A DNA stretch of 64,000 nucleotides from Aquiflexum gelatinilyticum. GTDB taxonomy: Bacteria > Bacteroidota > Bacteroidia > Cytophagales > Cyclobacteriaceae. The notes under the pieces are model-generated. The model saw only the letters and a program-made list of their open reading frames with translations, ran no database searches and was not told where the DNA came from. The position numbers and the translations under genes are program-made. Of the stretch, positions 16,148-56,854 are shown piece by piece (position 1 is the stretch's first letter; every line of letters begins with the position of its first letter). The DNA is taken from positions 62,001 to 126,000 of the forward strand of contig NZ_JANSUY010000014.1 of assembly GCF_024741135.1 (NCBI RefSeq), in the 5' to 3' direction.

Positions 16148-16212
16148 TGATTTTAATCATGTTTGAACCTACTTAATGTCACCCTAAAAATTTGACCCTT
16201 ACTTTAGATTTG
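16148..16212 (+). promoter_or_regulatory. Crp/Fnr-type box with -7 element before the UspA-like gene
   Basis: TGATTTTAATCA at 16148-16159 is the core of a perfect inverted repeat (arms AAACATGATT 16143-16152 and AATCATGTTT 16155-16164). A perfect Bacteroidetes -7 box TAGATTTG lies at 16205-16212. The distance from palindrome centre to the first base of the -7 box is 51.5 bp, 22 bp more than in most other copies in this window, i.e. two helical turns, as expected for class I activation. The binding protein is inferred. Confidence 0.65.
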
Positions 16213-16233
16213 TAGCTTAGGATTGGAAAAGCT

Positions 16234-16869
16234 ATGGTTTCGAAAGTAGACAACACAGTAAATTTTGCAATTCCGGAGGAAATAATAAAGTCTCACTATT
16301 GTGAAAAACTACCTTCGGGATTCCCGGTAAACCTTACCAAAGGAGGAGCCGGAATGATGTGCAATCCTCATCAGGGGCCAACACTTTATACAGCTCATTT
16401 ACCGGAAGTACTTGACTGGCTTCATGGACTTGAAAAACCAAAAGCTTTGGAAAATGAGCCATGTGGAATCCCGGTGCTACTTTTTGACAGGGAAATGTCC
16501 ACTGAAAACCTGCTTTTTCATTACGATGGAACTCCAGCTTCTGCCAGATTAATCAAAAACTTTATTGAACTCTTTCAGGATAACATTAAAAGCAGCAAAG
16601 CCACCATCATTTCTCCAAGCTTTATCCCCAAATCAAAAATGAGAGAAGAGCAAGAGATCGTGCAATTAGTAACAGGCTCTACGGCTGAGACTTCTTTTAT
16701 TAAATTTAATTTCAACAGGATTGGTGATTTTTGGTCATATGCTGTCAAACACCACTGTACACTTTTGGTGACTACAAAAAATTACCAGTCCGATCTGGCC
16801 AAAGTCCTTTTTCATTTTTACAAAGGCGGTATGTGGTACGATCGTTTGTCATTTTACCTAGCCCTATAA
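16234..16869 (+). CDS. UspA-like protein, function unknown
   Basis: A 211-residue soluble protein without signal peptide. Its middle and end resemble a universal stress protein fold: a strand with LLFDREM, then HYDGTPASARLIKNFIELF (the Usp-type 'DGS' turn and following helix), a long variable part, and a strand-helix CTLLVTTKNYQSDLAKVLFHF near the end. The first 85 residues (with a KGGAGMMCNPHQGP segment) match nothing I recognise. It is transcribed alone from a promoter with a Crp/Fnr-type box and sits 62 bp upstream of the cbb3 block, which has its own box, so a role under low oxygen is inferred. Family assignment is tentative. Confidence 0.7.
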   Translation: MVSKVDNTVNFAIPEEIIKSHYCEKLPSGFPVNLTKGGAGMMCNPHQGPTLYTAHLPEVLDWLHGLEKPKALENEPCGIPVLLFDREMSTENLLFHYDGTPASARLIKNFIELFQDNIKSSKATIISPSFIPKSKMREEQEIVQLVTGSTAETSFIKFNFNRIGDFWSYAVKHHCTLLVTTKNYQSDLAKVLFHFYKGGMWYDRLSFYLAL

Positions 16870-16883
16870 ATCATTGAATTAGA

Positions 16884-16926
16884 TGATTTTTGTCATGTTT
16901 TTAAGGGTTTTATCTAGCTAAATTGT
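16884..16926 (+). promoter_or_regulatory. Crp/Fnr-type box upstream of the cbb3 oxidase block
   Basis: TGATTTTTGTCA at 16884-16895 (extended ATGAT-TTTT-GTCAT) matches TGAY-N4-RTCA. A weak -7 candidate TAAATTGT lies at 16919-16926, exactly the 29.5 bp from palindrome centre that other promoters in this window show. The predicted transcript start would be only a few bases from the ccoI ATG at 16932. Confidence 0.6.
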
Positions 16927-16931: not shown

Positions 16932-19370
16932 ATGTCAAATCAGGTCAATACATCCATCCGACGGGAAACTTCCACTTGCTACCACTGCGGGGAAGAATGC
17001 AAAGATGAAATTCTCCATATCGGAGAAAAGGATTTTTGCTGCACCGGGTGCAAACTGGTCTATGAAGTGTTGAGCGAAAGTGACTTATGTACTTATTATG
17101 AAATAGCAGATAAGCCTGGATTAAGCCAAAAATCAGTTTCCGGAAGAGATAACAGATTTGATTACTTGGATGATGCAGACATTGTCAGGAAGTTGGTAGA
17201 CTTCCAAAACGCAGAGGAAACCCATATTACTTTTTCGATTCCTTTGATCCATTGCGCTTCCTGTATCTGGCTTCTTGAAAACCTCCATAAACTTCACCCC
17301 GGCATAATTTCCGGAAGGGTAGAATTCATCAAAAAGAAAGTCCAGGTCAAATACCTCCAAGACAAAATCAGCCTTAAAGAATTGGTCAGTCTGCTTTCCC
17401 GGATTGGATATGAACCCACGATCAACCTGGCAGATGCCGACAAAAAGACAGTCGTAGTCACTGATAAAAAACTGATTTACAAACTTGCCGTTGCCGGATT
17501 TTGCTTTGGCAACATGATGCTTTTCAGTTTGCCTGAATATTTTGCAGAAGTAGAATTGTTGGGAGAAGGGTTCAAAAAAACCTTCAATTATTTGAACGTC
17601 ATGCTCTCTCTTCCTGTATTTTTTTATGCTGCGACTGATTATTATCGTTCAGCATGGCTTTCGATCCGGAATAAGGCAGTCAATATGGATGTGCCGATAG
17701 CCATCGGGATTGTCACCTTATTTACTTATAGTCTTTTCGATATTTTCATGTTGGGAAATGAAGGCTATTTGGATACGATGGGTGGACTGCTTTTCTTCCT
17801 TTTGATCGGAAAATATTACCAGCAAAAGACCTACGACACACTTTCCTTTGACAGGGACTACAAATCTTATTTTCCGGTAGCCGTCACCAAAATAGTAAGA
17901 GATGAGGAAGATGTCATTCCGTTGATCAAGCTGAATGTCGGGGATATCATCAAAGTCAGAAATGAAGAACTGATACCGGCGGACAGCATTTTATTGGAAG
18001 GAGAAGCGTTTGTTGATTACAGTTTTGTTACCGGAGAGGAAGTTCCTGTTGCCAAAAGAAAAGGTGAGCTGATCTATGCGGGTGGAAGACAAAAAGGAAA
18101 GGCTTTGACTTTGGCGGTTCAAAAATCACCTTCTCAGGGGTATTTGACTGATTTGTGGAACAATGATTCCTTTGATAAAGAAAAAGTCAACAGTCTGGAA
18201 TCTTTGGCAAACAGGATTTCTGGAAAGTTTACTTTCATTGTCTTGGCAATAGCCTTTGGCGCTTTGATATATTGGGGGGTTACAGGTCAGCTATCTATGG
18301 GGGTTTTGGCCTTTACCTCAGTGTTGATCATAACATGCCCCTGTGCTTTGGCCATGTCCACTCCATTTACATTGGGAAATACCCTTCGGGTGTTTGGCCA
18401 AGGAAAATTCTTTCTCAAAAATTCACATGTCATTGAGAAGCTTGCCAAAGTCGATACAGTTGTTTTTGACAAAACAGGAACACTTACTTCCACTTCTGAA
18501 GCTTCTGTCAAATATTTCGGAGAGCCACTTTCGACAGAATCCAAGTCCATCATCAAATCATTGGTAAATCAGTCTACCCATGCCCTCAGCAACCGCATCA
18601 ATACCGCTCTTGATGGAGTGAAAGCCATCAAACTGGGAGAGGTTGAGGAGATTTCAGGAAAAGGCCTTAGGACAATTTACAAGACCCAAGAAATAAAGTT
18701 GGGTTCAGCGGACTTTGTCGGAGCTGGGACACAAGGATTGCCGGAAGGTGGAAATCTCGTGTTTTTTGCAGTGGAAGGTACGCTTCTGGGATATTTTTTC
18801 ATTCAGAGCGGTTTGCGCAAAGGTATAGAAAATGTGGTTTCTGATATCAATGAGAAATTTCCTGTTCATTTTCTTTCGGGCGATCAAGACCATGAGCGGG
18901 TGAATCTTGTCAAGGTTTTTGGAAATCAGATACTGATGAATTTCAACCAAAGCCCAAGTGACAAACTTGCCTATATCAAAAACCTGAATCAAAACAGCGC
19001 CCATACCCTCATGATAGGAGATGGCCTCAATGATGCCGGCGCTTTGAGAGAGAGCCAAGTTGGTATTGCCTTGACAGACAAAATCACGAATTTTTCGCCT
19101 GCCTCTGATGCCATCATGGATGCAGCAGTCATCCAAAAACTACCTGCCTTTTTGGATTTTACAAAAACCAGTAGAAAAATCATCAAAGCCAGTTTTGGAT
19201 TGAGCTTTACCTATAATATAGTCGGGGTATACTTTGCTGTACAAGGACTGGTAAGTCCTGTATTCTGTGCTATCCTGATGCCTATCAGCAGTATTTCGGT
19301 AGTTGTATTTACCACGCTGACCACCAATTATCTCGCCTACAGAAGGGGCTTAAAAGACAAAATCTGGTAA
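16932..19370 (+). CDS. ccoI: cbb3 oxidase-type copper P1B-ATPase
   Basis: Copper-exporting P-type ATPase of the CcoI/FixI group, supplying copper for cbb3 oxidase assembly. From the ATG at 16932 the protein has 812 residues; a TTG three codons upstream is ignored. Parts in order: an N-terminal zinc-finger-like cluster (CYHCGEEC and FCCTGCK), a heavy-metal domain with HCASCIW, eight membrane helices, the ion-path motif Cys469-Pro-Cys471 (ITCPCALAMSTP), the phosphorylation site Asp513 in DKTGT, and the hinge GDGLNDAGAL. The nucleotide-domain motif that is usually SxHP reads STHALS, so His550 is kept but Pro is Ala. It heads the cbb3 gene block. Confidence 0.94.
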   Translation: MSNQVNTSIRRETSTCYHCGEECKDEILHIGEKDFCCTGCKLVYEVLSESDLCTYYEIADKPGLSQKSVSGRDNRFDYLDDADIVRKLVDFQNAEETHITFSIPLIHCASCIWLLENLHKLHPGIISGRVEFIKKKVQVKYLQDKISLKELVSLLSRIGYEPTINLADADKKTVVVTDKKLIYKLAVAGFCFGNMMLFSLPEYFAEVELLGEGFKKTFNYLNVMLSLPVFFYAATDYYRSAWLSIRNKAVNMDVPIAIGIVTLFTYSLFDIFMLGNEGYLDTMGGLLFFLLIGKYYQQKTYDTLSFDRDYKSYFPVAVTKIVRDEEDVIPLIKLNVGDIIKVRNEELIPADSILLEGEAFVDYSFVTGEEVPVAKRKGELIYAGGRQKGKALTLAVQKSPSQGYLTDLWNNDSFDKEKVNSLESLANRISGKFTFIVLAIAFGALIYWGVTGQLSMGVLAFTSVLIITCPCALAMSTPFTLGNTLRVFGQGKFFLKNSHVIEKLAKVDTVVFDKTGTLTSTSEASVKYFGEPLSTESKSIIKSLVNQSTHALSNRINTALDGVKAIKLGEVEEISGKGLRTIYKTQEIKLGSADFVGAGTQGLPEGGNLVFFAVEGTLLGYFFIQSGLRKGIENVVSDINEKFPVHFLSGDQDHERVNLVKVFGNQILMNFNQSPSDKLAYIKNLNQNSAHTLMIGDGLNDAGALRESQVGIALTDKITNFSPASDAIMDAAVIQKLPAFLDFTKTSRKIIKASFGLSFTYNIVGVYFAVQGLVSPVFCAILMPISSISVVVFTTLTTNYLAYRRGLKDKIW

Positions 19371-19563: not shown

Positions 19564-21696
19564 ATGCCAGGAACAACACTTGAACAGTTCAGTTACGACA
19601 ACAAGATCGTAAAGTACTTCGGCGTCGCCACCATAGCTTGGGGCCTTGTCGGAATGCTGGTCGGGGTTATAGCAGCCACCCAGCTGTTTTTGCCCGAGGC
19701 CAATTTGGGAAATCCCTACACCACTTTTGGAAGAATCAGACCGCTCCATACCAATGCGGTGATTTTTGCCTTTGTAGGAAATGCGATTTTCGCAGGGATT
19801 TATTATTCCATGCCTAGACTATTGAAAACACCCATGTGGAGCAAAGCCCTTAGCTGGTTCCACTTTTGGGGTTGGCAATTGATCATTCTATTGGCGGCTA
19901 TTACCCTTCCGCTGGGTTTGACGACCTCAAAGGAATATGCCGAATTAGAATGGCCGATTGACATTTTGATAGCCATAGTATGGGTTGCTTTTGGTGCCAA
20001 TATGATCGGTGCCTTGATCAAAAGAAGAGAAAAGCACATGTACGTCGCCATTTGGTTCTATTTGGCATCTTTCGTTACAGTAGCCGTTCTCCATATTTTC
20101 AATTCCCTTGCTTTGCCTGTATCCTTTTTCAAAAGCTACTCAGCCTATGCAGGTGTTCAGGATGCTTTGGTTCAGTGGTGGTACGGACACAATGCAGTAG
20201 CATTCTTCCTGACCACGCCTTTCTTGGGATTGATGTATTATTATCTGCCCAAAGCAGCCAATAGACCAGTCTATTCTTATAAGTTATCCATTGTTCACTT
20301 TTGGTCATTGATTTTCTTGTACATCTGGGCAGGTCCTCACCACTTGCTTTATACGGCATTACCGGAATGGGCGCAGGTATTGGGTACTGTTTTCTCAGTC
20401 ATGTTGATTGCTCCTTCATGGGGAGGTATGGTCAATGGTCTTTTGACATTGAGAGGTGCCTGGGACAAAGTAAGGGTTGATCCTGTTTTGAAATTCATGG
20501 TTGTCGCTGTCACAGCATACGGTATGTCCACATTTGAAGGACCTTTGCTTTCATTGAAAAATGTAAACGCCATAGCTCACTACACTGACTGGATCGTAGC
20601 ACACGTGCATATAGGAGGTTTGGGCTGGAATGGTTTCTTTACTTTTGCCATGTTGTATTGGTTATGGCCAAAAATGTGGAAAACAAACCTGTATTCAACA
20701 AAACTTGCCACCACCCACTTTTGGATGGGTACCATTGGTATCATATTCTACGCATTGCCAATGTATGTCGCAGCTTTGACTCAGTCATTGATGTGGAAGG
20801 AATTTACCGAAGCCGGTAGATTGGCATATCCAAACTTCTTGGAGACTGTCATCCAAATCAAACCTATGTATATGTTGAGGGCTTTTGGTGGTCTATTGTA
20901 TTTGGCAGGTGCATTCTTGTTGGTTTACAATATGGTAAAAACAGCACAGCAGGGTAAATTCATGGCTGAAGAGGCTGATGAAGCACCAGCATTGAAACCG
21001 CACGTACCTGTTGAGGGAGAATTCTGGCACAGGGCTTGGGAAAGAAAGCCTGTATTCTTTACAGTTTTGGCGACCATAGCCATCTTGATAGGTGGAGCCA
21101 TAGAGATCATTCCAACCATCTTGGTCAAATCCAATGTGCCGACGATATCAAGTGTAACTCCTTATACTCCTCTTGAGCTTCAGGGTAGAGATTTGTATAT
21201 CTCTCATGGTTGTGTGGGTTGTCACTCACAGATGATCAGACCATTCCGTTCGGAGACAGAACGATTTGGTGAATATTCCAAGGCAGGTGAATTTGTTTAT
21301 GACAGGCCATTCCTTTGGGGTTCCAAGCGTACCGGTCCGGATTTGCATAGAGAGGGAGGAAAATATCCAGATAGCTGGCATTACCACCACATGGTAGATC
21401 CTACATCCATGTCGCCGGGTTCATTGATGCCTCCATACCCGTGGTTGTCTACCAATATCATGGACCACTCTGATGTTCCTGCCAAAATCAGAACCTTGCA
21501 AAAATTGGGTGTTCCTTATCCTGAAGGATATGATGAGCAAGCCAATGCAGACCTGACTTTACAAGCCAATAAGATAGCTGCCAACCTGAAAACAGCAGGT
21601 GTAGAAGTAATGCCTGAATCCGAAATGGTCGCATTGATCGCCTATCTCCAACGCTTGGGTACAGATATCAAAAAAACAACAGCCTCTAACCCATAA
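19564..21696 (+). CDS. ccoNO: cbb3 oxidase fused subunits I and II (CcoN-CcoO)
   Basis: A fusion of the catalytic heme-copper subunit CcoN and the monoheme cytochrome c subunit CcoO, an arrangement usual in Bacteroidetes. Residues 1 to about 470 are CcoN with 12 or more helices and the His ligands in LHTNAVIFAF, GHNAVAFFL and VAHVHIGGLGWNG. After a linker and one more helix (about 500-525), the CcoO part carries one heme c site, Cys550, Cys553 and His554 (HGCVGCHSQMIRPF), and the downstream Met-containing YPWL segment. The protein reduces O2 with high affinity under microaerobic conditions. Total length 710 residues fits the fused family. Confidence 0.96.
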   Translation: MPGTTLEQFSYDNKIVKYFGVATIAWGLVGMLVGVIAATQLFLPEANLGNPYTTFGRIRPLHTNAVIFAFVGNAIFAGIYYSMPRLLKTPMWSKALSWFHFWGWQLIILLAAITLPLGLTTSKEYAELEWPIDILIAIVWVAFGANMIGALIKRREKHMYVAIWFYLASFVTVAVLHIFNSLALPVSFFKSYSAYAGVQDALVQWWYGHNAVAFFLTTPFLGLMYYYLPKAANRPVYSYKLSIVHFWSLIFLYIWAGPHHLLYTALPEWAQVLGTVFSVMLIAPSWGGMVNGLLTLRGAWDKVRVDPVLKFMVVAVTAYGMSTFEGPLLSLKNVNAIAHYTDWIVAHVHIGGLGWNGFFTFAMLYWLWPKMWKTNLYSTKLATTHFWMGTIGIIFYALPMYVAALTQSLMWKEFTEAGRLAYPNFLETVIQIKPMYMLRAFGGLLYLAGAFLLVYNMVKTAQQGKFMAEEADEAPALKPHVPVEGEFWHRAWERKPVFFTVLATIAILIGGAIEIIPTILVKSNVPTISSVTPYTPLELQGRDLYISHGCVGCHSQMIRPFRSETERFGEYSKAGEFVYDRPFLWGSKRTGPDLHREGGKYPDSWHYHHMVDPTSMSPGSLMPPYPWLSTNIMDHSDVPAKIRTLQKLGVPYPEGYDEQANADLTLQANKIAANLKTAGVEVMPESEMVALIAYLQRLGTDIKKTTASNP

Positions 21697-21708
21697 ATTT
21701 CAGGAACT

Positions 21709-21900
21709 ATGAAAAAGGACATATTAAGTTCCATCGAGAACATAGAAATCTACCCCATCATCTCCTTGTTGATCTTCGTGATTTTCTTTATAGGGATGTT
21801 TATATGGGTGATCAGTGTGGATAAAAAATACATCAACCATATGAAGGAAATGCCTTTCAATGACAAACCACAAAATTTAGAAGGCTATGAAAAAGTTTAA
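21709..21900 (+). CDS. ccoQ: cbb3 oxidase small subunit CcoQ-like
   Basis: A 63-residue protein with one membrane helix (residues about 16-36) and a short charged tail, in the usual CcoQ position between ccoNO and ccoP. The motif after the helix, VISVDKKYINHMKEMPF, resembles Bacteroidetes CcoQ-like proteins where an exit helix is followed by a Tyr and PF/PLD segment. CcoQ stabilises the complex. It overlaps ccoP by 14 bp. Confidence 0.8.
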   Translation: MKKDILSSIENIEIYPIISLLIFVIFFIGMFIWVISVDKKYINHMKEMPFNDKPQNLEGYEKV

Positions 21901-22831
21901 ATCCTTATTTCTAGTGATTGCAGGGATGTTTTTAGCACTTCCTTCATTTGCGCAGACAAGCGAATCAACCTGGTTTGCCAACCTTCAAAGTATGGACAGT
22001 ACCCAACTCACGCTTCTTGTGATTCTTGGAGTAGTGCTTGGTGTCATCGTCTTACTTCTGATATTGATGATTTATCTGATGACGTTTATGACGGCAGTAT
22101 TCAGAAAAGAAAATCCAGAAATGGCAAACCAACCTTCATGGTGGGATGAGTTTAAGATCAAATACGTCACAGGAAAAATGAAACCTGTGGGAGGTAAAGA
22201 AGAGAAAGAACTCATGAAGGAACATACTTTTGACGGTATTGTGGAACTTGATAACCATATGCCGCCTTGGTTGGCCAATGTATTCTACCTCACCATAGGA
22301 TTTGCTGTGATTTATTTCACCTACTTCACTGTTTTGGGCTTGGGCAAAACCCAACTCGAAGAATATGCAGAGGAGCAGAGAATTGCGGCTATTCAGATAG
22401 AGGAATATAAGGCACTTGCAGTAAGTAGCATTGATGAGAATTCTGTGGTATTTGATGAAACTCCCGCAGCCATTGCAGCAGGACTAAGTATCTTCAGTGC
22501 CAACTGTGTAGCTTGCCACGCACAAGATGGGGGTGGAGGCGTAGGTTCCAACCTCACAGATGAGTATTGGAAGCACGGAGGATCAATCAATGATATCTTC
22601 AAAGTGATCAAATATGGTGTTCCGGAAAAAGGAATGATTCCTTGGCAAGATCAATTGAGTCCTGAACAAATGCAGCAAGTTGCTAGCTTTATCTTGACAC
22701 TCCAAGGAACCACCCCTGCCAATCCCAAAGCAGCAGAAGGAGAAAGATATGTACCTGCAGGCGCTGAGCCTGCCAAGGCAGATTCAGTCGCAGCCCCTGT
22801 TGCTGTAGAAGCGGTAGCAGAAGCCAAATAA
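21887..22831 (+). CDS. ccoP: cbb3 oxidase subunit III, monoheme CcoP
   Basis: Cytochrome c subunit of cbb3 oxidase, 314 residues. Layout: a first hydrophobic segment with signal-peptide look (LFLVIAGMFLALPSFAQ), a long helix (about 42-70), a cytoplasmic linker, a second helix (about 128-150), then a single cytochrome c domain with Cys207, Cys210 and His211 (NCVACHAQDGGGGVG) and Met in KGMIPW. Proteobacterial CcoP has two heme c sites; only one CxxCH is present here. The C-terminus is a low-complexity Ala/Pro/Glu tail. The start overlaps ccoQ. Confidence 0.93.
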   Translation: MKKFKSLFLVIAGMFLALPSFAQTSESTWFANLQSMDSTQLTLLVILGVVLGVIVLLLILMIYLMTFMTAVFRKENPEMANQPSWWDEFKIKYVTGKMKPVGGKEEKELMKEHTFDGIVELDNHMPPWLANVFYLTIGFAVIYFTYFTVLGLGKTQLEEYAEEQRIAAIQIEEYKALAVSSIDENSVVFDETPAAIAAGLSIFSANCVACHAQDGGGGVGSNLTDEYWKHGGSINDIFKVIKYGVPEKGMIPWQDQLSPEQMQQVASFILTLQGTTPANPKAAEGERYVPAGAEPAKADSVAAPVAVEAVAEAK

Positions 22832-22836
22832 GTAAT

Positions 22837-22866
22837 AACCCCTGAGAGGACTATCTCTCAGGGGTT
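22837..22866 (+). terminator. 12-bp perfect hairpin between ccoP and ccoG
   Basis: AACCCCTGAGAG (22837-22848), loop GACTAT, CTCTCAGGGGTT (22855-22866). There is no good T-run after it, so it may be an attenuator or mRNA-stabilising end rather than a full terminator. Confidence 0.6.
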
Positions 22867-22887
22867 AAAATTTTCAACTCCAAGATT

Positions 22888-24309
22888 ATGAGTAAGATCA
22901 ATCCAAATTTAGACCCGGAGCATTTTAGGGATTCACTCGCGTCGGTAAGTTCAGAGGGAAAGCGAAACTGGATCTATCCCAAAAAGGTATCGGGCAAATT
23001 CTATAAATGGAGGACTTATTTATCATGGGTGCTCTTGGCAATACTATTTGCAGGACCATTTATCCAAGTGGGCGGAAGGCCCTACATGCTGTTTAATATC
23101 TTCGAAAGAAAGTTCATCATCTTTGGTGCTGCATTTTGGCCTCAGGATACCCATTTGCTGATTTTCTTATTGTTGATATTGTTTGTGTTTGTAATCCTGT
23201 TCACGGCAGTGTTTGGTAGGATTTTTTGTGGATGGGCTTGTCCTCAGACTTTGTTTTTGGAGATGGTTTTCCGCAAAATCGAATATGCCATCGAAGGCGA
23301 TGCCAACCAACAAAGAAAGCTGAATGAGATGCCATGGAACAGTGAGAAAATCTGGAAGAAAGGACTGAAAATGACCATTTTCGTAATCATTTCTTTGATG
23401 ATTTCCCATTTGGTCATGGCCTACCTGATAGGGGTAGACCAAGTGATGGAAATCGTCAGTCAGCCACCTTCAGCCCATATGGCTGGATTCATCGGTTTGA
23501 TGGCATTCACCGGAATATTTCTTTTTGTTTTTTCCTGGTTTCGAGAGCAGGCTTGTATTGTGGTATGTCCTTATGGAAGGCTACAGGGGGTATTGTTGGA
23601 TGCCAATTCGATCAATGTCACCTATGACCATGTCAGAGGAGAACCTCGCGGACCTATCCGAAAAAATAAAGTTGAGGAAGCGCCTAAGGGTGATTGCATC
23701 GACTGCGGACTATGTGTTCAGGTTTGTCCGACAGGGATTGATATCCGAAATGGTGTACAGATGGAATGCGTCAACTGTACTGCCTGCATCGATATCTGTG
23801 ATGAAGTCATGGTCAAGGTGGATAGGCCGGAGGGTTTGATCAGATATGCTTCTGACAACAGTGTGATGCACCGTACCCAAAAACTGATTACCACGAGGGT
23901 GAAAGTCTATTCAATCATGTTGGTGGTGTTGATGGGGGCATTTATCGCATTGATAGCTACAAGGGAAGATTTGGCAGCGACTGTGACCAGGTTTAGGGGG
24001 ATGACTTATCAGGCACGGGATACAGGACAGATCAGTAACCTTTACGAAGTAAGTTTTATCAATAAGACATTTGATGCCCAAAAAGTAGCTTTAGTTTCTG
24101 AAAATGAAAAATATACCGTAGAGGTAGTCGGAGACCAAAACTGGACTTTGGATGGTCAGGCGAAATTTAACGGAAGGTTCTTTTTGGTAAAAGACCAAAA
24201 GGACATGCTTGTTAATCAGGAAGATGTGACCTTACTGCTGATGCAAAACGGTGAGGTAATTGACAAAATCAGTACGAGTTTTGTTGGGCCGGTTTTTAGT
24301 AATCAGTGA
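22888..24309 (+). CDS. ccoG: cbb3 oxidase accessory iron-sulfur protein CcoG
   Basis: Membrane ferredoxin-like protein (RdxA/FixG/CcoG family) of 473 residues; CcoG acts as a cupric reductase during cbb3 maturation. Several helices flank the signature FCGWACPQTLFLEMVFRKIE near residue 115. Two 4Fe-4S clusters are indicated by CIDCGLCVQVCPTG and CVNCTACIDIC near residues 270-310. A C-terminal Ig-like FixG domain (about 370-473) is visible, with strands such as QISNLYEVSFINKT. It follows ccoP after a hairpin and its stop codon overlaps a run of CAGT heptads. Confidence 0.94.
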   Translation: MSKINPNLDPEHFRDSLASVSSEGKRNWIYPKKVSGKFYKWRTYLSWVLLAILFAGPFIQVGGRPYMLFNIFERKFIIFGAAFWPQDTHLLIFLLLILFVFVILFTAVFGRIFCGWACPQTLFLEMVFRKIEYAIEGDANQQRKLNEMPWNSEKIWKKGLKMTIFVIISLMISHLVMAYLIGVDQVMEIVSQPPSAHMAGFIGLMAFTGIFLFVFSWFREQACIVVCPYGRLQGVLLDANSINVTYDHVRGEPRGPIRKNKVEEAPKGDCIDCGLCVQVCPTGIDIRNGVQMECVNCTACIDICDEVMVKVDRPEGLIRYASDNSVMHRTQKLITTRVKVYSIMLVVLMGAFIALIATREDLAATVTRFRGMTYQARDTGQISNLYEVSFINKTFDAQKVALVSENEKYTVEVVGDQNWTLDGQAKFNGRFFLVKDQKDMLVNQEDVTLLLMQNGEVIDKISTSFVGPVFSNQ

Positions 24310-24360
24310 TCAGTTTACAGTAGTCAGTACTCAGTTAACCAAATAACCGAATAACCTTCC
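24304..24360. repeat. phased short repeats CAGTnnn (x5) and AACCnnnn (x3)
   Basis: CAGT occurs at 24304, 24311, 24318, 24325 and 24332, an exact 7-bp period, with variable 3-bp spacers. AACC then occurs at 24337, 24345 and 24353, an exact 8-bp period. The first copy overlaps the ccoG stop codon; the array fills the gap before ccoH. Confidence 0.75.
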
Positions 24361-24413
24361 AACATTTCAACTTTGAAACTTAAGAACCAAATAATCATTT
24401 AACCAAAAAAAAT

Positions 24414-24839
24414 ATGAACTGGGGAAAAGGAATAGTAATCACATTGATTGTCTTCATCAGTTTAATGGTAGGATTAGTCACGATCTGTGTAAAACAAGAT
24501 GATATCCATCTTGTCACCGAAGATTATTATGGAGAAGAGATCAGGTACCAAGATCAAATCGAAAAGATGATCAATGCAAATTCTCTTGATTACAAGGTGT
24601 TGGATTATGACGGTCAACTCAAAAAAGTGGATTTACATCTTCCTGCAGGGTCAAAAGGAACCATGCATTTGTTCAGGCCCTCGGATGCCAGGCTTGATCA
24701 AAAAATTGACTTTGAAATTACAGGTCAAAATGCAAATGCCTTTGACTTAAAAACTTTGAAACCGGGTTATTGGAAATTAAAATTGACTTGGTCTGAAAAT
24801 GGGGTGGATTATTTTCATGAAGAAAAAATCAATATTTAA
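24414..24839 (+). CDS. ccoH: FixH/CcoH-family protein
   Basis: A 141-residue protein with one N-terminal helix (WGKGIVITLIVFISLMVGLV) and a periplasmic immunoglobulin-like domain. The segment after the helix, VKQDDIHLVTEDYYGEEIRYQDQI, is the FixH signature. FixH/CcoH takes part in assembly and stability of cbb3 oxidase together with CcoG, CcoI and CcoS, all present here. It ends directly before the ATG of the next gene without a gap. Confidence 0.9.
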   Translation: MNWGKGIVITLIVFISLMVGLVTICVKQDDIHLVTEDYYGEEIRYQDQIEKMINANSLDYKVLDYDGQLKKVDLHLPAGSKGTMHLFRPSDARLDQKIDFEITGQNANAFDLKTLKPGYWKLKLTWSENGVDYFHEEKINI

Positions 24840-25544
24840 ATGATCTGGACGGCGTTTTTATTGGGGTTTTTGGGTTCGTTTCACTGCTTGGGCATGTGTG
24901 GACCCATTGCTTTGGCGGTGTCTGCCAAAGACAACTCCCGATTTTTACGAAATAAAATCATCTACAACCTAGGCCGAACTGTTACTTATTCTATTTTGGG
25001 TGCTTTGATCGGTCTAATCGGTTTTTCCCTTGCTTTGGCAGGAATCCAACAATGGATTTCCATTGTAATGGGTTCCCTTATTTTATTGATGGCATTTTTT
25101 TACAAAAGTTCTGAGAGACTTATTACCCAATCCGGTTTATACGGTGGGGTAAATAAATTGAAATCCAAGTTGGGCTATTTTCTTAAAAAAGGAGGGACAC
25201 CTGCCTTTTTTGCATCCGGATTGTTGAATGGATTACTTCCCTGTGGGATGGTGTATATTGCCTTGATTGCTTCTCTTGCTCTCCAAAGTCCGCTTGAAGG
25301 GGCGATGTATATGTTCTTTTTTGGTTTGGGGACAACACCTATGCTGATTGTGGTTATGATTTCAGGAAAAATCCTTTCGCTATCTATACGAACCAAATTG
25401 ACCAATGCACTTCCTTATTTCGCCATGTTTATCGGGATATTATTTATCGTAAGAGGAATGGGCTTGGGAATCAATTTCATCAGTCCAAAGCTTCCTGTAT
25501 TCAGTGAAGGAAATCTGACCACCGAAATCACAGTTTGCCATTGA
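24840..25544 (+). CDS. TauE/SafE-type membrane protein linked to cbb3 oxidase
   Basis: A 234-residue protein with about six helices of the UreH-like/TauE-SafE family (DUF2946-neighbour type found at the end of Bacteroidetes cco operons). The N-terminal FLGSFHCLGMCGPIALAV contains a His-Cys-x3-Cys pattern inside the first helix, and a similar NGLLPCGMVYIAL lies in the fourth; such Cys/His/Met residues suggest copper transport, as for the CcoA or CcoH-linked exporters. The start abuts the stop of ccoH, and this is the last gene of the block. Confidence 0.85.
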   Translation: MIWTAFLLGFLGSFHCLGMCGPIALAVSAKDNSRFLRNKIIYNLGRTVTYSILGALIGLIGFSLALAGIQQWISIVMGSLILLMAFFYKSSERLITQSGLYGGVNKLKSKLGYFLKKGGTPAFFASGLLNGLLPCGMVYIALIASLALQSPLEGAMYMFFFGLGTTPMLIVVMISGKILSLSIRTKLTNALPYFAMFIGILFIVRGMGLGINFISPKLPVFSEGNLTTEITVCH

Positions 25545-40020: not shown

Positions 40021-41409
40021 ATGCGATTGATCAGTTTGATGCTGTTTTTGGGGTTAATTTTCCCAACAGTAGCGCAGGAAAATCACATAGATTCACTTTC
40101 GGGCCATGAAGAATCCGGCAGGAAATTGGGACATGATCTTGAAAAAGGAAAATTTGATTTCCACATCAGGTCATTTCTTATGTCTACCCATAACAGGGGA
40201 GACTTGCTTGATTATTCAGCACTGGGAGTTGGTGCGGGATTGGGTTACCTCAGCCCGGTATATAAAGGATTCCAAGTAGGGTTCAGTGGCTTTTTTGTGT
40301 TTCAGTTGTTTGAAAACAATCTTGCTGTAGCTGATCCAACTACCGGTGCAGGCAATAGGTATGAAATCCTGCTGTTTGACATGCACGATCCTGAGAATAT
40401 GACGGATCTTGACAGATTGGAAGAGTTCTTTATTTCTTACAAAAGAGGAAATTTTAGAACGGTCTTTGGAAGACAAAAGATCAATTCGCCTTTTCTCAAT
40501 GAACAGGACAACAGGATGAGGCCCAATATATTTAGTGGACTTACTGTCAATTACCAAAAGTCCAAATGGGAAACAACAGCTTCTTGGTTGAGTGCAGTAA
40601 CCATAAGGGGGACTGTGGATTGGTTTAGTATGGAAGAATCGTTTGGGGTGTATCCTTTTGGGAGAAATCCATTTGGAAAACCATCCAATTATTCCCATAA
40701 CATTTCTTCAAAAGGAATGGGTATGATCGGACTGAAGTATCGAAAAGATGGTTTTTCCGCTCAGGGATGGAATTATTTTGCAGAAAATGTCTTTAACATG
40801 AGTTTTTTGCAAGGTGATTATGTTCTTGATCTTGGACATGCCTCGGTCGACTTGGGCGGTCAGGGTTTCTTTCAGACAGCTGTCAATGGCGGAGGAAACT
40901 CAGAAATTGAAAAGACCTACATGCTTCCGGATGAAAAGTCATTTGGATTTGGTGCAAAAATCGGACTGAACTCAGGACGGCATCACATTTCAGCCAATTT
41001 TCTTGGAATAAATGACAGGGGTAGATTCCTTTTCCCACGAGAATGGGGCAGGGAAAACTTCTATGCAAGTATGTCACGGGAGAGGTATGAGGGAAGTGGT
41101 GATATGGATGCGTTGGTCTTCAAATATGCTTATGATACGCCTATCAATGGTTTGAATGCGCAGTTTGGAGCAGGCAAAGTCAATCATGGAGGGTTGGATT
41201 CATTCAAAACAAACAAATACGGAATCCCATCTTATTACCACTTTACAGGTCTATTGGACTACAGATTCAGCAATTACCTAGAAGGATTGGATATTCAGTT
41301 TATGGTAGCCCAAAAAACTGCCCAAAACCAGGACGAAGTTCCCGACAAGTATAGGATCAATAGGGTAGATATGTGGAATTTAAACTTTATTATTGATTAC
41401 AGATTTTAA
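40021..41409 (+). CDS. OprD-like outer-membrane porin (first copy)
   Basis: A 462-residue outer-membrane protein. The start at 40021 gives a proper signal peptide (MRLISLMLFLGLIFPTVAQ); an in-frame ATG at 39994 lies upstream of the predicted -7 box and is rejected. Mature strands are typical of a porin and the line FGRQKINSPFLNEQDNRMRP followed by a 'GLTVNY' strand matches the OprD-type 'QDNRM' signature. Shared blocks with the second copy at 55049 include NRYEILLFD, SFGVYPFGRNPFGKPSNY and RFLFPREWGR. The gene shares a transcript with the YeeE/YedE pair (24 bp gap), so it probably admits a sulfur oxyanion; substrate is inferred. Confidence 0.82.
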   Translation: MRLISLMLFLGLIFPTVAQENHIDSLSGHEESGRKLGHDLEKGKFDFHIRSFLMSTHNRGDLLDYSALGVGAGLGYLSPVYKGFQVGFSGFFVFQLFENNLAVADPTTGAGNRYEILLFDMHDPENMTDLDRLEEFFISYKRGNFRTVFGRQKINSPFLNEQDNRMRPNIFSGLTVNYQKSKWETTASWLSAVTIRGTVDWFSMEESFGVYPFGRNPFGKPSNYSHNISSKGMGMIGLKYRKDGFSAQGWNYFAENVFNMSFLQGDYVLDLGHASVDLGGQGFFQTAVNGGGNSEIEKTYMLPDEKSFGFGAKIGLNSGRHHISANFLGINDRGRFLFPREWGRENFYASMSRERYEGSGDMDALVFKYAYDTPINGLNAQFGAGKVNHGGLDSFKTNKYGIPSYYHFTGLLDYRFSNYLEGLDIQFMVAQKTAQNQDEVPDKYRINRVDMWNLNFIIDYRF

Positions 41410-41433
41410 AACTAAACAAACAAAAAGAATACA

Positions 41434-42015
41434 ATGGAACAGTTTATTGAATGGATTAAGCAGCCTTGGCCTTGGTGGATAGCTGGTCCGATGATCGGGC
41501 TTATCGTCCCTACTTTGTTGATTGTCGGAGGCAAAGCCTTCGGGATATCTTCCTCCTTGAGGCACGTCTGCGCTATGTGTGTGCCGGCTAATATTCCTTT
41601 CTTTACCTATGATTGGAAAAAGGAATTGTGGAACATCGCATTTGTCATCGGTGTCGCCATCGGAGGCTTTATTGGCCATAACTTACTTGCAAATCCTGAA
41701 ATGATAGAAGTTGCCGAGTCCACACAGCGTGATTTGGCTGCTCTTGGTATCACGGATTACAGAAGCATCATGCCTCACGAGATTTTCACTTGGGAGAATT
41801 TATTTACCGCTAAAGGCTTACTGTTCTTCGTAATAGGTGGATTCTTGGTAGGATTCGGTACCAGGTACGCAGGAGGATGTACTTCAGGACACGCGATCAT
41901 GGGTATCAGTTCGTTGCAGTGGCCGTCAGTCGTCGCCACGATCTTCTTCATGGCAGGAGGATTCTTGATGACGCATCTCTTTCTTGGTCCTTTGATGAAA
42001 TTAGTAGGCTTTTAA
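41434..42015 (+). CDS. YeeE/YedE family sulfur transporter, first half
   Basis: A 193-residue membrane protein of the YeeE/YedE (DUF395) family with about five helices. The signature GFGTRYAGGCTSGHAIMGISSLQWPSVVATI contains the functionally important Cys of the thiosulfate transporter TsuA and PmpA proteins. In this family one protein or a pair of half-size proteins moves thiosulfate or reduced sulfur; here the pair is completed by the next gene 13 bp downstream. The N-terminal segment carries a short periplasmic CAMCVPANIPF. It is the second gene of the porin operon. Confidence 0.92.
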   Translation: MEQFIEWIKQPWPWWIAGPMIGLIVPTLLIVGGKAFGISSSLRHVCAMCVPANIPFFTYDWKKELWNIAFVIGVAIGGFIGHNLLANPEMIEVAESTQRDLAALGITDYRSIMPHEIFTWENLFTAKGLLFFVIGGFLVGFGTRYAGGCTSGHAIMGISSLQWPSVVATIFFMAGGFLMTHLFLGPLMKLVGF

Positions 42016-42028
42016 TCTTTAGAAAAAA

Positions 42029-42517
42029 ATGGGAACAGCAGTAAAAAAGGGAGAAAAACCGAATGCCGGAACAACTCCAAATAAAGAGCAAAAAGGCGAA
42101 AGTCCTTTGGAGTTATTGATGTACTTGATCATCGGAGTTGGTTTCGGTATTATTTTCATAAAAGCCGAAATTGTATCCTGGTTTAGGATCCAAGAGATGT
42201 TCAGGTTACAGTCATTCTTTATGTATGGCGTAATCGGATCAGCCATTGTGGTAGGTGCGCTTTCGATTCAGGTTATCAAATGGTTTAATATTAAGACTAT
42301 CAAAGGCGATAAAATCGTCATAACCGATAAGGAATTTAGAAAAGGACAGATCATCGGAGGATTTATCTTCGGATTGGGTTGGGCGCTGACAGGAGCGTGT
42401 CCGGGACCTCTTTTTGCACAAATAGGAAGTGGGTTCACTGTTATTCTGGTGACCTTAGTCAGCGCAGTAGCAGGCACTTGGGTTTATGGAAGGTTTTCCC
42501 ATAAATTACCAAATTAA
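42029..42517 (+). CDS. YeeE/YedE family sulfur transporter, second half
   Basis: A 162-residue membrane protein (DUF6691/YeeE-like) with four or five helices, the PmpB-type partner of the upstream gene. The conserved block IFGLGWALTGACPGPLFAQIGSG holds the second essential Cys. The N-terminus is hydrophilic (VKKGEKPNAGTTPNKEQKG), the remainder hydrophobic. Together the two genes form a split thiosulfate/sulfur transporter. A strong terminator lies 70 bp after the stop, closing the operon. Confidence 0.92.
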   Translation: MGTAVKKGEKPNAGTTPNKEQKGESPLELLMYLIIGVGFGIIFIKAEIVSWFRIQEMFRLQSFFMYGVIGSAIVVGALSIQVIKWFNIKTIKGDKIVITDKEFRKGQIIGGFIFGLGWALTGACPGPLFAQIGSGFTVILVTLVSAVAGTWVYGRFSHKLPN

Positions 42518-53915: not shown

Positions 53916-53959
53916 TGATCTATATCACAATTTTTACGGGCAAAATGTAGGCAAATTTG
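53916..53959 (+). promoter_or_regulatory. Crp/Fnr-type promoter of the tsdA unit
   Basis: Perfect palindrome with core TGATCTATATCA at 53916-53927 inside TTGTGAT-CTAT-ATCACAA (53913-53930), and -7 box CAAATTTG (one mismatch) at 53952-53959. Centre to -7 box is 30.5 bp, one more than the other copies. Confidence 0.72.
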
Positions 53960-53981: not shown

Positions 53982-55052
53982 ATGAAAGATTCATTCCAGC
54001 CTATACTCAAAATGCTGACGCTAATGGTCGGATTGTTATTGAGTGTGACCCTGCTTACTGCCGTACTGATTGGTGCTATAGTAATGGTTTTTAGTGGAGG
54101 AAGCCTTACACCGTTAAACCAAATCAATACAAGTGAGGTGCAGAACCTGACCGTCGCTGTGTCAGAAACATACAGAGGTGTTGTTCCAAAAGAAGGCCTT
54201 TGGATGGCTCCTGAATGGAGTTCTGTCGATCAGGAACCCAATGCAGAGGATATCAAATATGGCAAAGAACTTGTCGCCAATACAGCCGCTTATCTTGGAC
54301 CTAACGGAAAAGTGAAGAAAATTTCCAATGGTATGAATTGTCAGAATTGCCACCTCAATGCAGGCACCGCCCCTTTGGGCAATAATTACAGTGCAGTGGC
54401 CTCTACCTATCCTAAAGTCCGTGCAAGATCCGGGCAGATGGAGGATGTGGAGAAAAGGATCAATGATTGCTTTGAAAGGAGTCTCAACGGCAAAGCCCTG
54501 GAAAACAACAGCAAAGAAATGGTAGCCATGGTAGCCTATATGAAATGGCTTGGTAAAGACGTCCCAAAAGGCGAATCACCAAAAGGTGTTGGGATCTATG
54601 AAGTACCGTTTTTGGACAGGGCAGCTGATCCGGTAAAGGGAAAAGCAGTTTACGACCGACAGTGCCAAAGCTGTCACATGGCTGATGGACAGGGCATGCC
54701 AAAACCAGACAAATCAGGACATATCTACCCGCCGCTATGGGGAGATAACAGCTATAATGATGGGGCAGGATTATTCAGAATGTCCCGCTTTGCCGGATAT
54801 GTAAAAACCAATATGCCTCTAGGTGCGACTTTTGAAAGACCCATTCTTACAGATGAGGAAGCTTGGGATGTGGCAGCCTATGTCAATTCACTTCCAAGAC
54901 CTAAGAAAGACATCAGAAAAGATTGGCCAGATATTTCCAAAAAACCAATTGACCACCCATTTGGTCCATTCTCAGATGATTTTACGGAAGAGCAACACAA
55001 ATTCGGTCCATTCAAACCAATAAAAGAAGCTAGAGCTAGCGCATCCAAATGA
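53982..55052 (+). CDS. TsdA-like diheme thiosulfate dehydrogenase
   Basis: A 356-residue periplasmic diheme cytochrome c anchored by an N-terminal helix (about 10-38). Heme 1 site Cys120, Cys123, His124 (NCQNCHLNAG) is followed by RSGQMEDVEKRINDCFERSLNGK, where Cys163 corresponds to the cysteine axial ligand of heme 1 in characterised TsdA. Heme 2 site is Cys228, Cys231, His232 (CQSCHMADGQG). The end (FGPFSDDFTEEQHKFGPFKPI) is a TsdA hallmark. The enzyme oxidises thiosulfate to tetrathionate or runs in reverse; direction is not set by sequence. Its stop overlaps the porin start as ATGA and the promoter carries a Crp/Fnr-type box. Confidence 0.88.
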   Translation: MKDSFQPILKMLTLMVGLLLSVTLLTAVLIGAIVMVFSGGSLTPLNQINTSEVQNLTVAVSETYRGVVPKEGLWMAPEWSSVDQEPNAEDIKYGKELVANTAAYLGPNGKVKKISNGMNCQNCHLNAGTAPLGNNYSAVASTYPKVRARSGQMEDVEKRINDCFERSLNGKALENNSKEMVAMVAYMKWLGKDVPKGESPKGVGIYEVPFLDRAADPVKGKAVYDRQCQSCHMADGQGMPKPDKSGHIYPPLWGDNSYNDGAGLFRMSRFAGYVKTNMPLGATFERPILTDEEAWDVAAYVNSLPRPKKDIRKDWPDISKKPIDHPFGPFSDDFTEEQHKFGPFKPIKEARASASK

Positions 55053-56425
55053 AAGCTTTCACTTTACTTATTTTTTTATTCCCATTGAGTCAGTACAGCT
55101 TAGCACAAGAAAAGGATTCCACCGAGTCCAATAAACCTTCCTTCATTCAGGGATCTGTTGGTTTGCGTTCATTTTGGATGTCGACTAGCTATTGGGAGGA
55201 CTTTAAGGATGATTATGCTTTGGGTCAAAGTGCCTTTATCCAACTTAGAACCAAAGATTATAAAGGTTTCTCTTTGATGGGAAGGTATACTGTATTTGGC
55301 AATTTGATAAGTTCGGAACTGACGGAAAGAGATCCGGTTACAGGAAATTTCAATAGATACGAGGTCGGCTTGTTTGATGTAAATGACCCTAAGGACAAGT
55401 TTTTCGGGAAATTAGAAGAGTTACAACTTCGCTACACCTCAAAAAAGTTTTCTGCCATAGCAGGGAGAATGGTCATCAACACTCCATTTGTGAATCCGCA
55501 GGATGGAAGACTTTCCCCAACCTTCGTAGAGGGCCTCAGCCTTAACTTTAAACCGGATTCCAAAAATCAATTTTCAGGAGATTTTATAGGAAAAATAAGT
55601 CCGAGGTCGACCTCCGGCTGGTATGCTGTGGGAGAATCTATCGGTGTTTATCCTGAAGGACAAAGCGTATTGGGAAAACCCTCAGGCTACACAGGAAATA
55701 CGAGCAGTGACTTTGTGACCATATTGGACTGGAAGCACAAGGTGACCAAAGACATGCTGATTCAAATCAACCATACTTATGTGGATAATATTTCCTCCAC
55801 TTTGCTGTCTCAGGCCAACAACGATTGGGATTTGGAAGGGACCCCCAACAAACTGGTAACGGGTCTGCAGTTTATCTTGCAGCATGGGCTGGGAGAGGGT
55901 GGAAATCCGGATCCCTTGAAGCAATACAAAGATCCCGATGACCTCAATTTTGTATTCAGTGGAAGGATTGGCTTAAAAAATCCCAAGATGATCTGGTGGG
56001 CAAATTATACACGGATCGACGGACAAGGCCGGTTTCTCAGTCCGAGGGAATGGGGAAGAGATCCTTTTTTCACTTTTATCCCAAGGGAAAGAAATGAAGG
56101 GTATAATCAGGTAGATGCACTGACTACTTACTACCAAAGGAATTTCCCAAAGTCCGGATTTCAGGTTTATGGCTATGCAGGGCTCCATTTTCTCCCCGAA
56201 CCCTCAAGAGTGGAATTCAATAAATATGGCTTTCCTTCCTATGCCCAACTTAATTTTGGAGGAAAATATATTCCTTCCCAATGGGGAAAAGGACTGGATT
56301 TTCACATGATTCTGATGAGTAAAATCAATTTGCTCTCAGGGGAATTAAAGCCTCAATGGATTTATAACAAGGTCAACATGGTCCATGTCAATTTTATAGT
56401 AAACTATACGATCCAATGGAAGTAA
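55049..56425 (+). CDS. OprD-like outer-membrane porin (second copy)
   Basis: A 458-residue outer-membrane protein with signal peptide MKAFTLLIFLFPLSQYSLAQ, a porin-like strand pattern and clear paralogy to the gene at 40021: NRYEVGLFD, NTPFVNPQDGRLSPTFVEG, SIGVYPEGQSVLGKPSGYTGN and RFLSPREWGRDPFFTF all have matching blocks in the first copy. It overlaps tsdA (ATGA) and the next gene by 10 bp. The likely role is passage of thiosulfate or tetrathionate through the outer membrane to TsdA, inferred from the operon. Confidence 0.85.
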   Translation: MKAFTLLIFLFPLSQYSLAQEKDSTESNKPSFIQGSVGLRSFWMSTSYWEDFKDDYALGQSAFIQLRTKDYKGFSLMGRYTVFGNLISSELTERDPVTGNFNRYEVGLFDVNDPKDKFFGKLEELQLRYTSKKFSAIAGRMVINTPFVNPQDGRLSPTFVEGLSLNFKPDSKNQFSGDFIGKISPRSTSGWYAVGESIGVYPEGQSVLGKPSGYTGNTSSDFVTILDWKHKVTKDMLIQINHTYVDNISSTLLSQANNDWDLEGTPNKLVTGLQFILQHGLGEGGNPDPLKQYKDPDDLNFVFSGRIGLKNPKMIWWANYTRIDGQGRFLSPREWGRDPFFTFIPRERNEGYNQVDALTTYYQRNFPKSGFQVYGYAGLHFLPEPSRVEFNKYGFPSYAQLNFGGKYIPSQWGKGLDFHMILMSKINLLSGELKPQWIYNKVNMVHVNFIVNYTIQWK

Positions 56426-56751
56426 CTGAAAAAATAGATTTGACCCAATTCGAAGCCTTGTTAAAATCCGAACTTGCCTTGTTGGTATATTTCTACCAGG
56501 AGAAGTGTGGGGTATGCACAGGTCTTTTCCCCAAAGTCCGGGACATGGTAAGGTCGGAATTCCCTGAAATGGAACTTCTAGTATTGGAGGCCCATCAAAA
56601 CAGGGAATTGGCAGCACAGCTAAGAATGATGTCTGTTCCCGGGATTTTAGTGTATTTTGAAGGAAAGGAGTTTTTTAGAACCAATGGTTTGGTTGCCATG
56701 ATAGAATTAAACACAAAAATTTCGAGGTACTACAACCTGATGTTTGATTGA
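56416..56751 (+). CDS. thioredoxin-like protein
   Basis: A 111-residue soluble thioredoxin-fold protein without signal peptide, with active site Cys31-Gly-Val-Cys34 (YQEKCGVCTGLFPK) in place of the classic CGPC, and the cis-Pro in MMSVPGILVYF. The Gly-Val spacer shifts redox potential relative to thioredoxin in known examples, so a specialised partner is likely. It is the third gene of the tsdA-porin unit (10-bp overlap). It could reduce a cytoplasmic disulfide produced during tetrathionate or peroxide handling; the peroxiredoxin gene follows from its own promoter. Confidence 0.88.
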   Translation: MEVTEKIDLTQFEALLKSELALLVYFYQEKCGVCTGLFPKVRDMVRSEFPEMELLVLEAHQNRELAAQLRMMSVPGILVYFEGKEFFRTNGLVAMIELNTKISRYYNLMFD

Positions 56752-56811
56752 TTTGAAAAGGGAAGATAAAACATCTCATAGATTTTTTCAATTGAATTCC
56801 AAAACCCCTAG

Positions 56812-56854
56812 TAACATTGGTCACATGATTTGGCCGTGATTCTTTGGAAATTTG
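56812..56854 (+). promoter_or_regulatory. Crp/Fnr-like promoter of the peroxiredoxin gene
   Basis: TAACATTGGTCA at 56812-56823 (one mismatch in the left half; extended GTAAC-ATTG-GTCAC) and -7 box GAAATTTG (one mismatch) at 56847-56854. Centre to first base of the -7 box is 29.5 bp. Confidence 0.55.

Follow-up and report, generated by a model that had tools for sequence, protein, structure and literature searches.

The stretch of the Aquiflexum gelatinilyticum genome analysed here (64,000 nucleotides, positions 62,001 to 126,000 of contig NZ_JANSUY010000014.1, in the following "the window") carries a cbb3 oxidase cluster as well as a number of sulfur and redox genes, and several of these are preceded by palindromes of the form TGAY-N4-RTCA, as expected for operators of Crp/Fnr-type regulators (Table 1). 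A preliminary description of the window had listed seven such palindromes, five of them at a fixed distance from a TAnnTTTG-like box, and had assigned all of them to one regulon. We followed these sites in the window, in the complete genome and in other genera of the family, and looked for the regulators that might read them.

Palindromes and promoter boxes in the window

All seven palindromes lie where they had been reported, five of them being perfect (16148, 16884, 38397, 39972 and 53916) and two having one mismatch (38001 and 56812). The intergenic DNA of the window (7,895 bases) contains six perfect palindromes, where 300 first-order Markov simulations of these bases gave 0.49 on average; when one mismatch is allowed the number rises to 22, with 10.3 expected. 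Neither count was reached in any of the simulations. The sixth perfect palindrome, TGATCGCAATCA at 19392-19403 between ccoI and ccoNO, was absent from the earlier list. Palindromes with one mismatch are common, and that list represents seven sites chosen out of 22.

The reported spacing also proved exact, with 23 bases between palindrome and box at 38001, 38397, 39972 and 56812 and 24 at 53916. At 38001 the box matches all six fixed bases, at each of the other four it matches five, and all five sites belong to sulfur genes. Two boxes at the cbb3 cluster had been overlooked: a perfect TAGATTTG at gap 45 from the palindrome at 16148, i.e., 22 bp beyond gap 23, and TAAATTGT (4/6) at exactly gap 23 from that at 16884. 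Within the window the spacing signal is modest (four boxes at gap 23 and two at gap 24, with a mean of 0.62 per gap over 44 palindrome-strands), and the proof of a fixed spacing comes from other genomes. In a scan of the complete A. gelatinilyticum genome (5.0 Mb, 57 contigs), a palindrome followed by NAnnTTTG at 21-25 bp was found 29 times as compared to six times in a backward-read control, a frequency above that expected by chance. Nine of these 29 pairs have exactly 23 bp, and two of the nine directly precede Crp/Fnr genes, of which the genome encodes four above the PF13545 (HTH_Crp_2) cut-off.

Table 1. Sites, promoter boxes and genes of the window discussed in the text (gaps are counted in bases from palindrome to box).
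Feature	Positions	Strand	Remarks
Class F palindrome TGATTTTAATCA, flanks A..T	16148..16159	+	before usp/cbb3 cluster; perfect in 15/15 loci, A..T flanks in 12/15
Half-site GTCA, with 23 bases between its end and the usp box	16178..16181	+	by eye in aligned sequences, unscored
-7-type box TAGATTTG, 45 bases after the palindrome	16205..16212	+	gap 45 in 14/15 genomes, 46 in the other
usp (earlier label "UspA-like"), 211-aa protein, first gene of the cbb3 cluster	16234..16869	+	
Class F palindrome TGATTTTTGTCA before ccoI	16884..16895	+	site in 11/15 loci, A..T flanks in 9/11
Box TAAATTGT, 23 bases after the palindrome	16919..16926	+	4/6; gap 23 best over 11 loci (3.45/6)
ccoI/fixI, copper-type P-ATPase	16932..19370	+	Pfam E1-E2_ATPase, ATPase-cat_bd
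cbb3 oxidase genes: ccoNO fusion, ccoP, ccoG, fixH, DsbD_2 protein	19564..25544	+	Pfam COX1+FixO, FixP_N, FixG_C, FixH, DsbD_2
Class S site TGATAAAAATTA, flanks G..C; box TAGCTTTG at 38036-38043	38001..38012	+	site in 13/17 loci, G..C in 11/13
trx, thioredoxin	38066..38386	+	Pfam Thioredoxin, 5.7e-30
Hybrid site TGACAAAAGTCA, flanks G..T; box TAATTTTA at 38432-38439	38397..38408	+	site in 16/17 loci; gap 23 mean 5.38/6
CstB-like persulfide dioxygenase-rhodanese (cstB), MBL fold and two rhodanese stretches	38473..39891	+	best PDB matches 3tp9 (1.4e-71), 3r2u (1.4e-63)
Class S site TGATAAATGTCA; box CAATTTTG at 40007-40014	39972..39983	+	site in 14/17 loci, G..C in 14/14; gap 23 mean 5.0/6
Porin-like protein and two YeeE/YedE-type sulfur transporter halves	40021..42517	+	OprD match below cut-off
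Class S site TGATCTATATCA; box CAAATTTG at 53952-53959, gap 24	53916..53927	+	site in 11/11 loci, gap 24 best
SoxA/TsdA-type cytochrome c (tsdA), second porin-like protein, thioredoxin-like protein	53982..56751	+	
Class S site TAACATTGGTCA; box GAAATTTG at 56847-56854	56812..56823	+	site in 7/7 loci, G..C in 7/7
prx, peroxiredoxin, PRK13189 type	56885..57532	+	NCBIfam NF009668 over cut-off

The protein encoded by cstB shows the fusion of an MBL persulfide dioxygenase with rhodanese domains that characterizes CstB. Neither this protein nor the cytochrome nor the transporters of the window scored above the cut-off of an NCBIfam equivalog. The usp product had no match in Pfam or NCBIfam at E 0.001, and the second porin-like protein, whose label stems from the preliminary description, has no Pfam match.

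Two classes of site across genera

Judged from their flanking bases, the sites fall into two classes, and each class points to a different Crp/Fnr gene, neither of them located in the window. The two sites of the cbb3 cluster, 16148 before usp and 16884 before ccoI, make up class F (A-TGAY-N4-RTCA-T), and class S (G-TGAY-N4-RTYA-C) comprises those at 38001, 39972, 53916 and 56812, while the cstB site at 38397 is a hybrid with G on one side and T on the other. Genes behind the class S and hybrid sites encode the thioredoxin, the persulfide dioxygenase-rhodanese, the porin-YeeE unit, the TsdA-like cytochrome and the peroxiredoxin, and the link of the palindromes to both cbb3 and sulfur/redox genes made in the preliminary description holds. 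For a comparison across the family we chose 18 genomes, one per genus, and brought their orthologous promoters into the same orientation (L120 and L150, whose promoters lay outside the fetched DNA, were excluded). Both flanks were G and C at regS (the regulator gene introduced below; 10/10), porin-YeeE (14/14), prx (7/7), the sulfide:quinone oxidoreductase gene sqr (11/11), trx (11/13) and tsdA (9/11), and both were A and T at usp (12/15) and ccoI (9/11); some of the odd cases, e.g., in tsdA, result from the automatic choice of a neighbouring palindrome. In six of the seven class S sets pairwise identity was 0.29-0.31 in the spacers (0.42 for regS), 0.57-0.85 in the boxes and 0.82-0.94 in the half-sites, the last value being partly forced by the way in which sites were picked. 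Boxes and flanks of the class S sets are conserved, unlike their spacers, a pattern that indicates selection.

Gap 23 was the best box position in the sulfur sets (24 at tsdA). In 80 named loci of the RegS family (664 kb), which were partly selected by a cysteine motif and unevenly sampled with many Algoriphagus, an exact palindrome is combined with an exact TAnnTTTG 18 times at gap 23 and eight times at gap 45, no other gap having more than two cases. In a further count a backward-read control gave a total of 34 versus 264 strand counts, its class split being unmatched and the total alone usable. G..C flanks are found in 16 of the 18 gap-23 cases, which precede regS (6), persulfide dioxygenase-rhodanese (4), TauE/SafE-like (4, by eye), YeeE (1) and rhodanese (1) genes. 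The remaining two are both from an Aequorivita locus (L245:1362 and 7321), where the left flank is C or A and the right one T, and stand before unrelated-looking genes for an ABC-permease-like and an unknown protein; they possibly represent the FNR-type class in Flavobacteriia.

The gap-45 peak was considered as an artefact of related genomes, which was ruled out, as it corresponds to the usp geometry that is kept in 14 of 15 genomes (5.73 of six matches on average in the 15 genomes, as compared to a median over gaps of 1.6). At usp, the perfect site at gap 45 and the GTCA half-site at gap 23 form a tandem, two helical turns apart, in which the half-site, recognized by eye, may represent a second, degenerate site placed as in class II promoters. 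Close to regS, a further palindrome separates a universal-stress gene from an SDR gene (L035 ~8471-8564, G000:C23:135470; L175-L183). It has a TAnnTTTG at exactly gap 45 in eight of nine close genera or species; the opposite strand shows a box-like sequence at gap 23, and the palindrome may serve both genes.

Crp/Fnr-type sites with a spacing under selection are above chance in the window, in the genome and in 60 genera of the family. Escherichia coli CRP reads GTGA half-sites and activates from a class II position near -41.5. Of the class II mechanism proposed earlier for the window, the distance of 29.5 bp from palindrome centre to -7 box stands as conserved, and the position suggested by the sequences is class II-like. 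Palindromes arising by chance in AT-rich intergenic DNA next to ordinary -7 boxes are an explanation favoured by the frequency of one-mismatch matches (22 in 7.9 kb versus about 10 expected), but we give this explanation practically no credence, as the conservation of boxes and flanks over non-conserved spacers, the gap histogram and the control counts all argue strongly against it.

Two candidate regulators

We consider it likely that two Crp/Fnr regulators, whose operators overlap, are at work in this region, an FNR-like protein acting on the cbb3 genes and a second protein, RegS, on the sulfur genes. Both are encoded outside the window (G000:C24:33854-34567 and G000:C23:136466-137119, respectively) and are among the four proteins above the HTH_Crp_2 cut-off.

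The assignment of class S to RegS is based on co-location. The exact class S promoter occurred 44 times in 60 genomes (in 22 of them) versus four times in the control, and in 12 of these cases one of 70 RegS-family genes is no more than 5 kb away (0.105 expected; binomial P 6e-22, a value that assumes independent sites and genomes, whereas a single gene accounts for two of the twelve). In contrast, none of the 44 was found within 5 kb of an Fnr-like gene, tested against the best 50 entries of a longer table. Neighbours within 4 kb on each side in the 80 RegS loci include cstB-like (19), SulP (18), rhodanese (11), YeeE (10) and YedE (8) genes, although these loci are not independent and nine of the SulP cases, from close relatives, reflect one inherited arrangement; in three of the 18 genomes (G023, G045 and G047) a RegS-family gene is found within 3 kb of a cstB-like gene.

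A class S search of the A. gelatinilyticum genome (fixed gap, at most two mismatches) gave 33 matches versus eight in the control. The eight with at most one mismatch belong to regS, sqr (best PDB match 6mp5, E 3e-99), a TlpA-type thioredoxin, a rhodanese, trx and porin-YeeE of the window, a fatty-acid hydroxylase and fnr, the gene of the FNR-like protein. Among others, the sites at DsrE, a second dioxygenase-rhodanese, SulP, DUF302 and, in the window, cstB and prx deviate at two positions. Of 12 genomes, 11 have a class S site at sqr and one has a weak match only. The targets predicted from the sites comprise sqr, persulfide dioxygenase, rhodanese and transporter genes, i.e., those expected of a persulfide response. 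Two class S sites only 1.4 kb apart (G000:C1:678686-680158) precede the fatty-acid hydroxylase and the rhodanese; the hydroxylase gene starts 200 bases after the box. A side observation concerns a collagen-like repeat protein in the window (44832-48941), which is split into two open frames (ending at 46007 and restarting at 46026), perhaps by a frameshift or by an assembly error in the repeats.

The candidate for class F resembles E. coli FNR, FnrL and FixK in its N-terminal C-x2-C, its E..R recognition helix, its cbb3 target and its linkage to cco genes: fnr is located within 3 kb of ccoI in six of 18 genomes (in G045 a more distant homologue). The cysteines C10, C13, C59 and C112 are present in 30 of 30 aligned relatives, in a spacing that differs from E. 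coli FNR by the invariant third cysteine C59 and the lack of the C-x5-C arrangement; C112 is placed like C122 of FNR. In FNR four cysteines ligate a [4Fe-4S] cluster, and the four conserved here are candidates for such a role. NCBIfam scores remained below the cut-offs (88 of 228 bits for PRK11161, 73.5 of 300 for FnrL). Compared to the FNR operator TTGAT-N4-ATCAA, the class F operator agrees in the core TGAY-N4-RTCA and differs in the flanks, with A, not T, before TGA (A..T, not T..A). Class F matches in the genome numbered 40 versus nine in the control, many of them in coding DNA or common to class S (nine were marked F in the annotated part). Up-regulation of cbb3 at low oxygen is described for another member of the Bacteroidota, Flavobacterium psychrophilum (PMC9723704).

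Upstream of fnr the conserved box is at gap 10 (4.47 of six matches, compared to 3.93 at gap 23), seen as a TATNTTTA-like box 10 bases after the palindrome at L034 ~9785-9855 and in the relatives L072-L087. A protein bound there would cover the promoter, which suggests that the FNR-like protein represses its own gene.

The recognition helices differ as well. RegS has TSREVISR and 30 Fnr-like proteins have GTA[T/S]ET[V/L/I]IR (GTATETVIR in A. gelatinilyticum), without the arginine. In CRP the helix with Arg180-Glu181-Arg185 reads the G of the GTGA half-site. The flank difference between the classes corresponds to this difference in the helices, RegS having the arginine that would read the G and the FNR-like protein lacking it.

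A single FNR-like regulator could in principle act on all seven sites, with flank differences as variants of affinity: the TGAY-N4-RTCA core and the 23-base spacing are common to ccoI and the sulfur promoters, the cstB and fnr sites are hybrid or mixed, and the fnr site is a one-mismatch match to the class S pattern. We regard this as improbable, given that 12 of 44 class S promoters are located near RegS-family genes and none near the 50 Fnr-like genes tested, that the flanks separate consistently over genera, that regS itself is preceded by a class S site, and that the helices differ. Flanks, linkage and co-location reject the single-regulon model, and the one regulon of the preliminary description is replaced by a cbb3 set, probably under the FNR-like protein, and a sulfur set, probably under RegS.

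Several observations nevertheless weigh against so clean a division, besides the uneven sampling and the dependence among sites mentioned above. The cstB site is hybrid in most loci (left G 16/16, right T 14/16) and the fnr site mixed (left G 7, A 4 and C 4 of 15; right T 12/15), so that the two regulators may cross-talk, and oxygen and sulfide control might converge on such hybrid operators. Sites are missing from a number of loci (trx 4/17, porin 3/17 and ccoI 4/15, apart from single cases at cstB, 1/17, and fnr, 1/16), and the site upstream of regS is absent in six of 16 genomes, whose orthologues are 64-76% identical; four Algoriphagus with RegS orthologues at 74-79% identity do have it. 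The contrast between spacers and boxes is weaker in the cbb3 and fnr sets, where spacers are 0.47-0.61 identical. At least six of the 25 annotated class S matches outside the window (fnr uncounted) are inside long open frames, and several others precede genes without a known sulfur role. Finally, a paralogue of RegS with the same helix type, RegS2, could share class S sites.

RegS2 (C1:75428-76075; L036:9429-10076) has C-x5-C with Ser in place of the second of the paired cysteines present in RegS, and is followed by DnaJ/CbpA-like and CbpM-like genes (labels assigned by eye). The known regulator HcpR, which controls hcp and genes of NO detoxification, reads GTGA-N6-TCAC, a motif similar to class S. 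That class S sites are bound mainly by RegS2 or by an HcpR-like nitric oxide (NO) regulator would fit the shared SRE..R helix and the one genome (G020) in which a RegS2-related paralogue adjoins prx, and some of the 70 RegS-family genes may be RegS2-like. Yet none of the 33 class S matches of the genome is near RegS2, its neighbours are the DnaJ-like and CbpM-like genes, and it is sulfur genes that make up the named targets. We therefore retain RegS2 control of these genes as a rival only, and one to which we assign a low probability.

A putative sulfide-responsive switch and its implications

RegS resembles E. coli CRP in its full-length Crp-type sequence and its R-E-x3-R recognition helix, as well as in the GTGA half-site and the class II-like position of its predicted sites. 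It differs in the segment of the cAMP cassette, where CALSLTCC aligns by profile with GELGLFEEGQERSA of CRP and the equivalent of Glu72 is Ala, as well as in its sulfur targets, and its NCBIfam score (54.2 versus a cut-off of 266 bits) is not that of a cAMP-dependent CRP. The cassette of CRP includes Glu72, Arg82 and Ser83. In RegS the segment instead holds Cys78, Cys84 and Cys85 as C-x5-CC, found in 30 of 30 RegS-family proteins of 40-100% identity to RegS (30, mostly best-scoring, of the 70 matches in the 60-genome search). A set of 48 proteins from named genomes has C78 and C84 without exception and C85 in at least 90%; it was partly found via the cysteine motif, so that the set of 30 is the fairer test. 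RegS is 99% identical to a protein of Cognataquiflexum aquatile, and the best PDB match of its profile is 3DV8, which has C-x5-C.

From cassette and targets together, RegS is probably a sulfide/persulfide-responsive activator of Bacteroidota, the signal being deduced from the cysteines and the predicted regulon. In a persulfide-responsive regulator, such cysteines would form di- to tetrasulfide links. Known sulfane-sulfur sensors (CstR/CsoR, SqrR/BigR, FisR, OxyR, MarR) are similar in that a number of them regulate genes for sqr, persulfide dioxygenase or rhodanese and use two or three cysteines; they differ in that none of those named in the review passages is a Crp/Fnr protein, and that several are repressors, whereas RegS sites are at an activator position (PMC9774590, PMC11211675).

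RegS might alternatively control the sulfur genes but sense via heme, like CooA and PgRsp, via a metal centre, or via thiol oxidation by peroxide. PgRsp from Porphyromonas gingivalis is reported to be a heme-binding redox regulator of the Crp/Fnr family with 207 aa from the same phylum, modelled on 3DV8 (PMC6955866); its Cys76-x-Met78 resembles C78-A-M80 of RegS, and it may be a relative of RegS. Peroxiredoxin and thioredoxin are among the predicted RegS targets. Against heme stands that C84 and C85 would have no obvious heme-binding role and that, in the same source, single Ala changes of Cys76, Met78 or His85 left the heme spectra of PgRsp unchanged (PMC6955866); the predicted targets also include persulfide-making and persulfide-consuming enzymes. 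We find these other signals doubtful, if well worth keeping in mind.

Crp-fold activators with a cysteine thiol switch exist in FLP, CprK and FixK2, whose cysteine positions differ from those of RegS and whose regulons are not known to concern sulfide or persulfide. Among the open-access titles and abstract openings searched no Crp/Fnr sensor of persulfide or sulfide was found, and the switch represented by RegS is apparently undescribed so far. Some Crp/Fnr proteins of Flavobacteriales and Saprospiraceae are assigned to MalR in PMC8510549, and in the main text of the RedB paper the words "cysteine" and "Bacteroid-" do not occur (PMC9603854).

In the model we propose, the FNR-like protein would read ATGAY-N4-RTCAT and serve the cbb3 cluster, from a class II position (gap 23) at ccoI and in a tandem arrangement at usp, and would probably limit its own synthesis. 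RegS would read GTGAY-N4-RTYAC at about -41.5 relative to the Bacteroidota -7 box promoter. Sulfide entering the cell would be converted to persulfide by SQR, and persulfide or polysulfide would modify the thiols of Cys78 and Cys84-85, upon which RegS would bind its sites near -41.5. It would then activate genes of consumption (two persulfide dioxygenase-rhodaneses, thioredoxins and peroxiredoxin) and of transport (YeeE/YedE and SulP, with TauE/SafE-like genes in relatives), besides sqr, rhodanese, DsrE, the TsdA-like cytochrome and, in many genera, its own gene.

More tentatively, and at slightly less than even odds, RegS could be the founding member of a family of Crp-fold activators found throughout the phylum, their cyclic-nucleotide cassette having been turned into a C-x5-CC persulfide sensor. 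Bacteroidota might then use it as the master switch of their sulfide oxidation and sulfur export, and it might be the first Crp/Fnr persulfide sensor, standing beside an FNR with a shifted operator, with oxygen and sulfide control separated by one base pair per half-site and the helix arginine. Bacteroidota are abundant in sediments, the sea and the gut, and in the titles and abstract openings we found their sulfide sensing is undescribed. The analysis provides a candidate regulator, an operator, a list of targets and residues to mutate, which could be tested in cultivable relatives such as Algoriphagus and Belliella, and it offers a natural case of two paralogous Crp/Fnr regulators that are apparently separated by a single flanking base pair.

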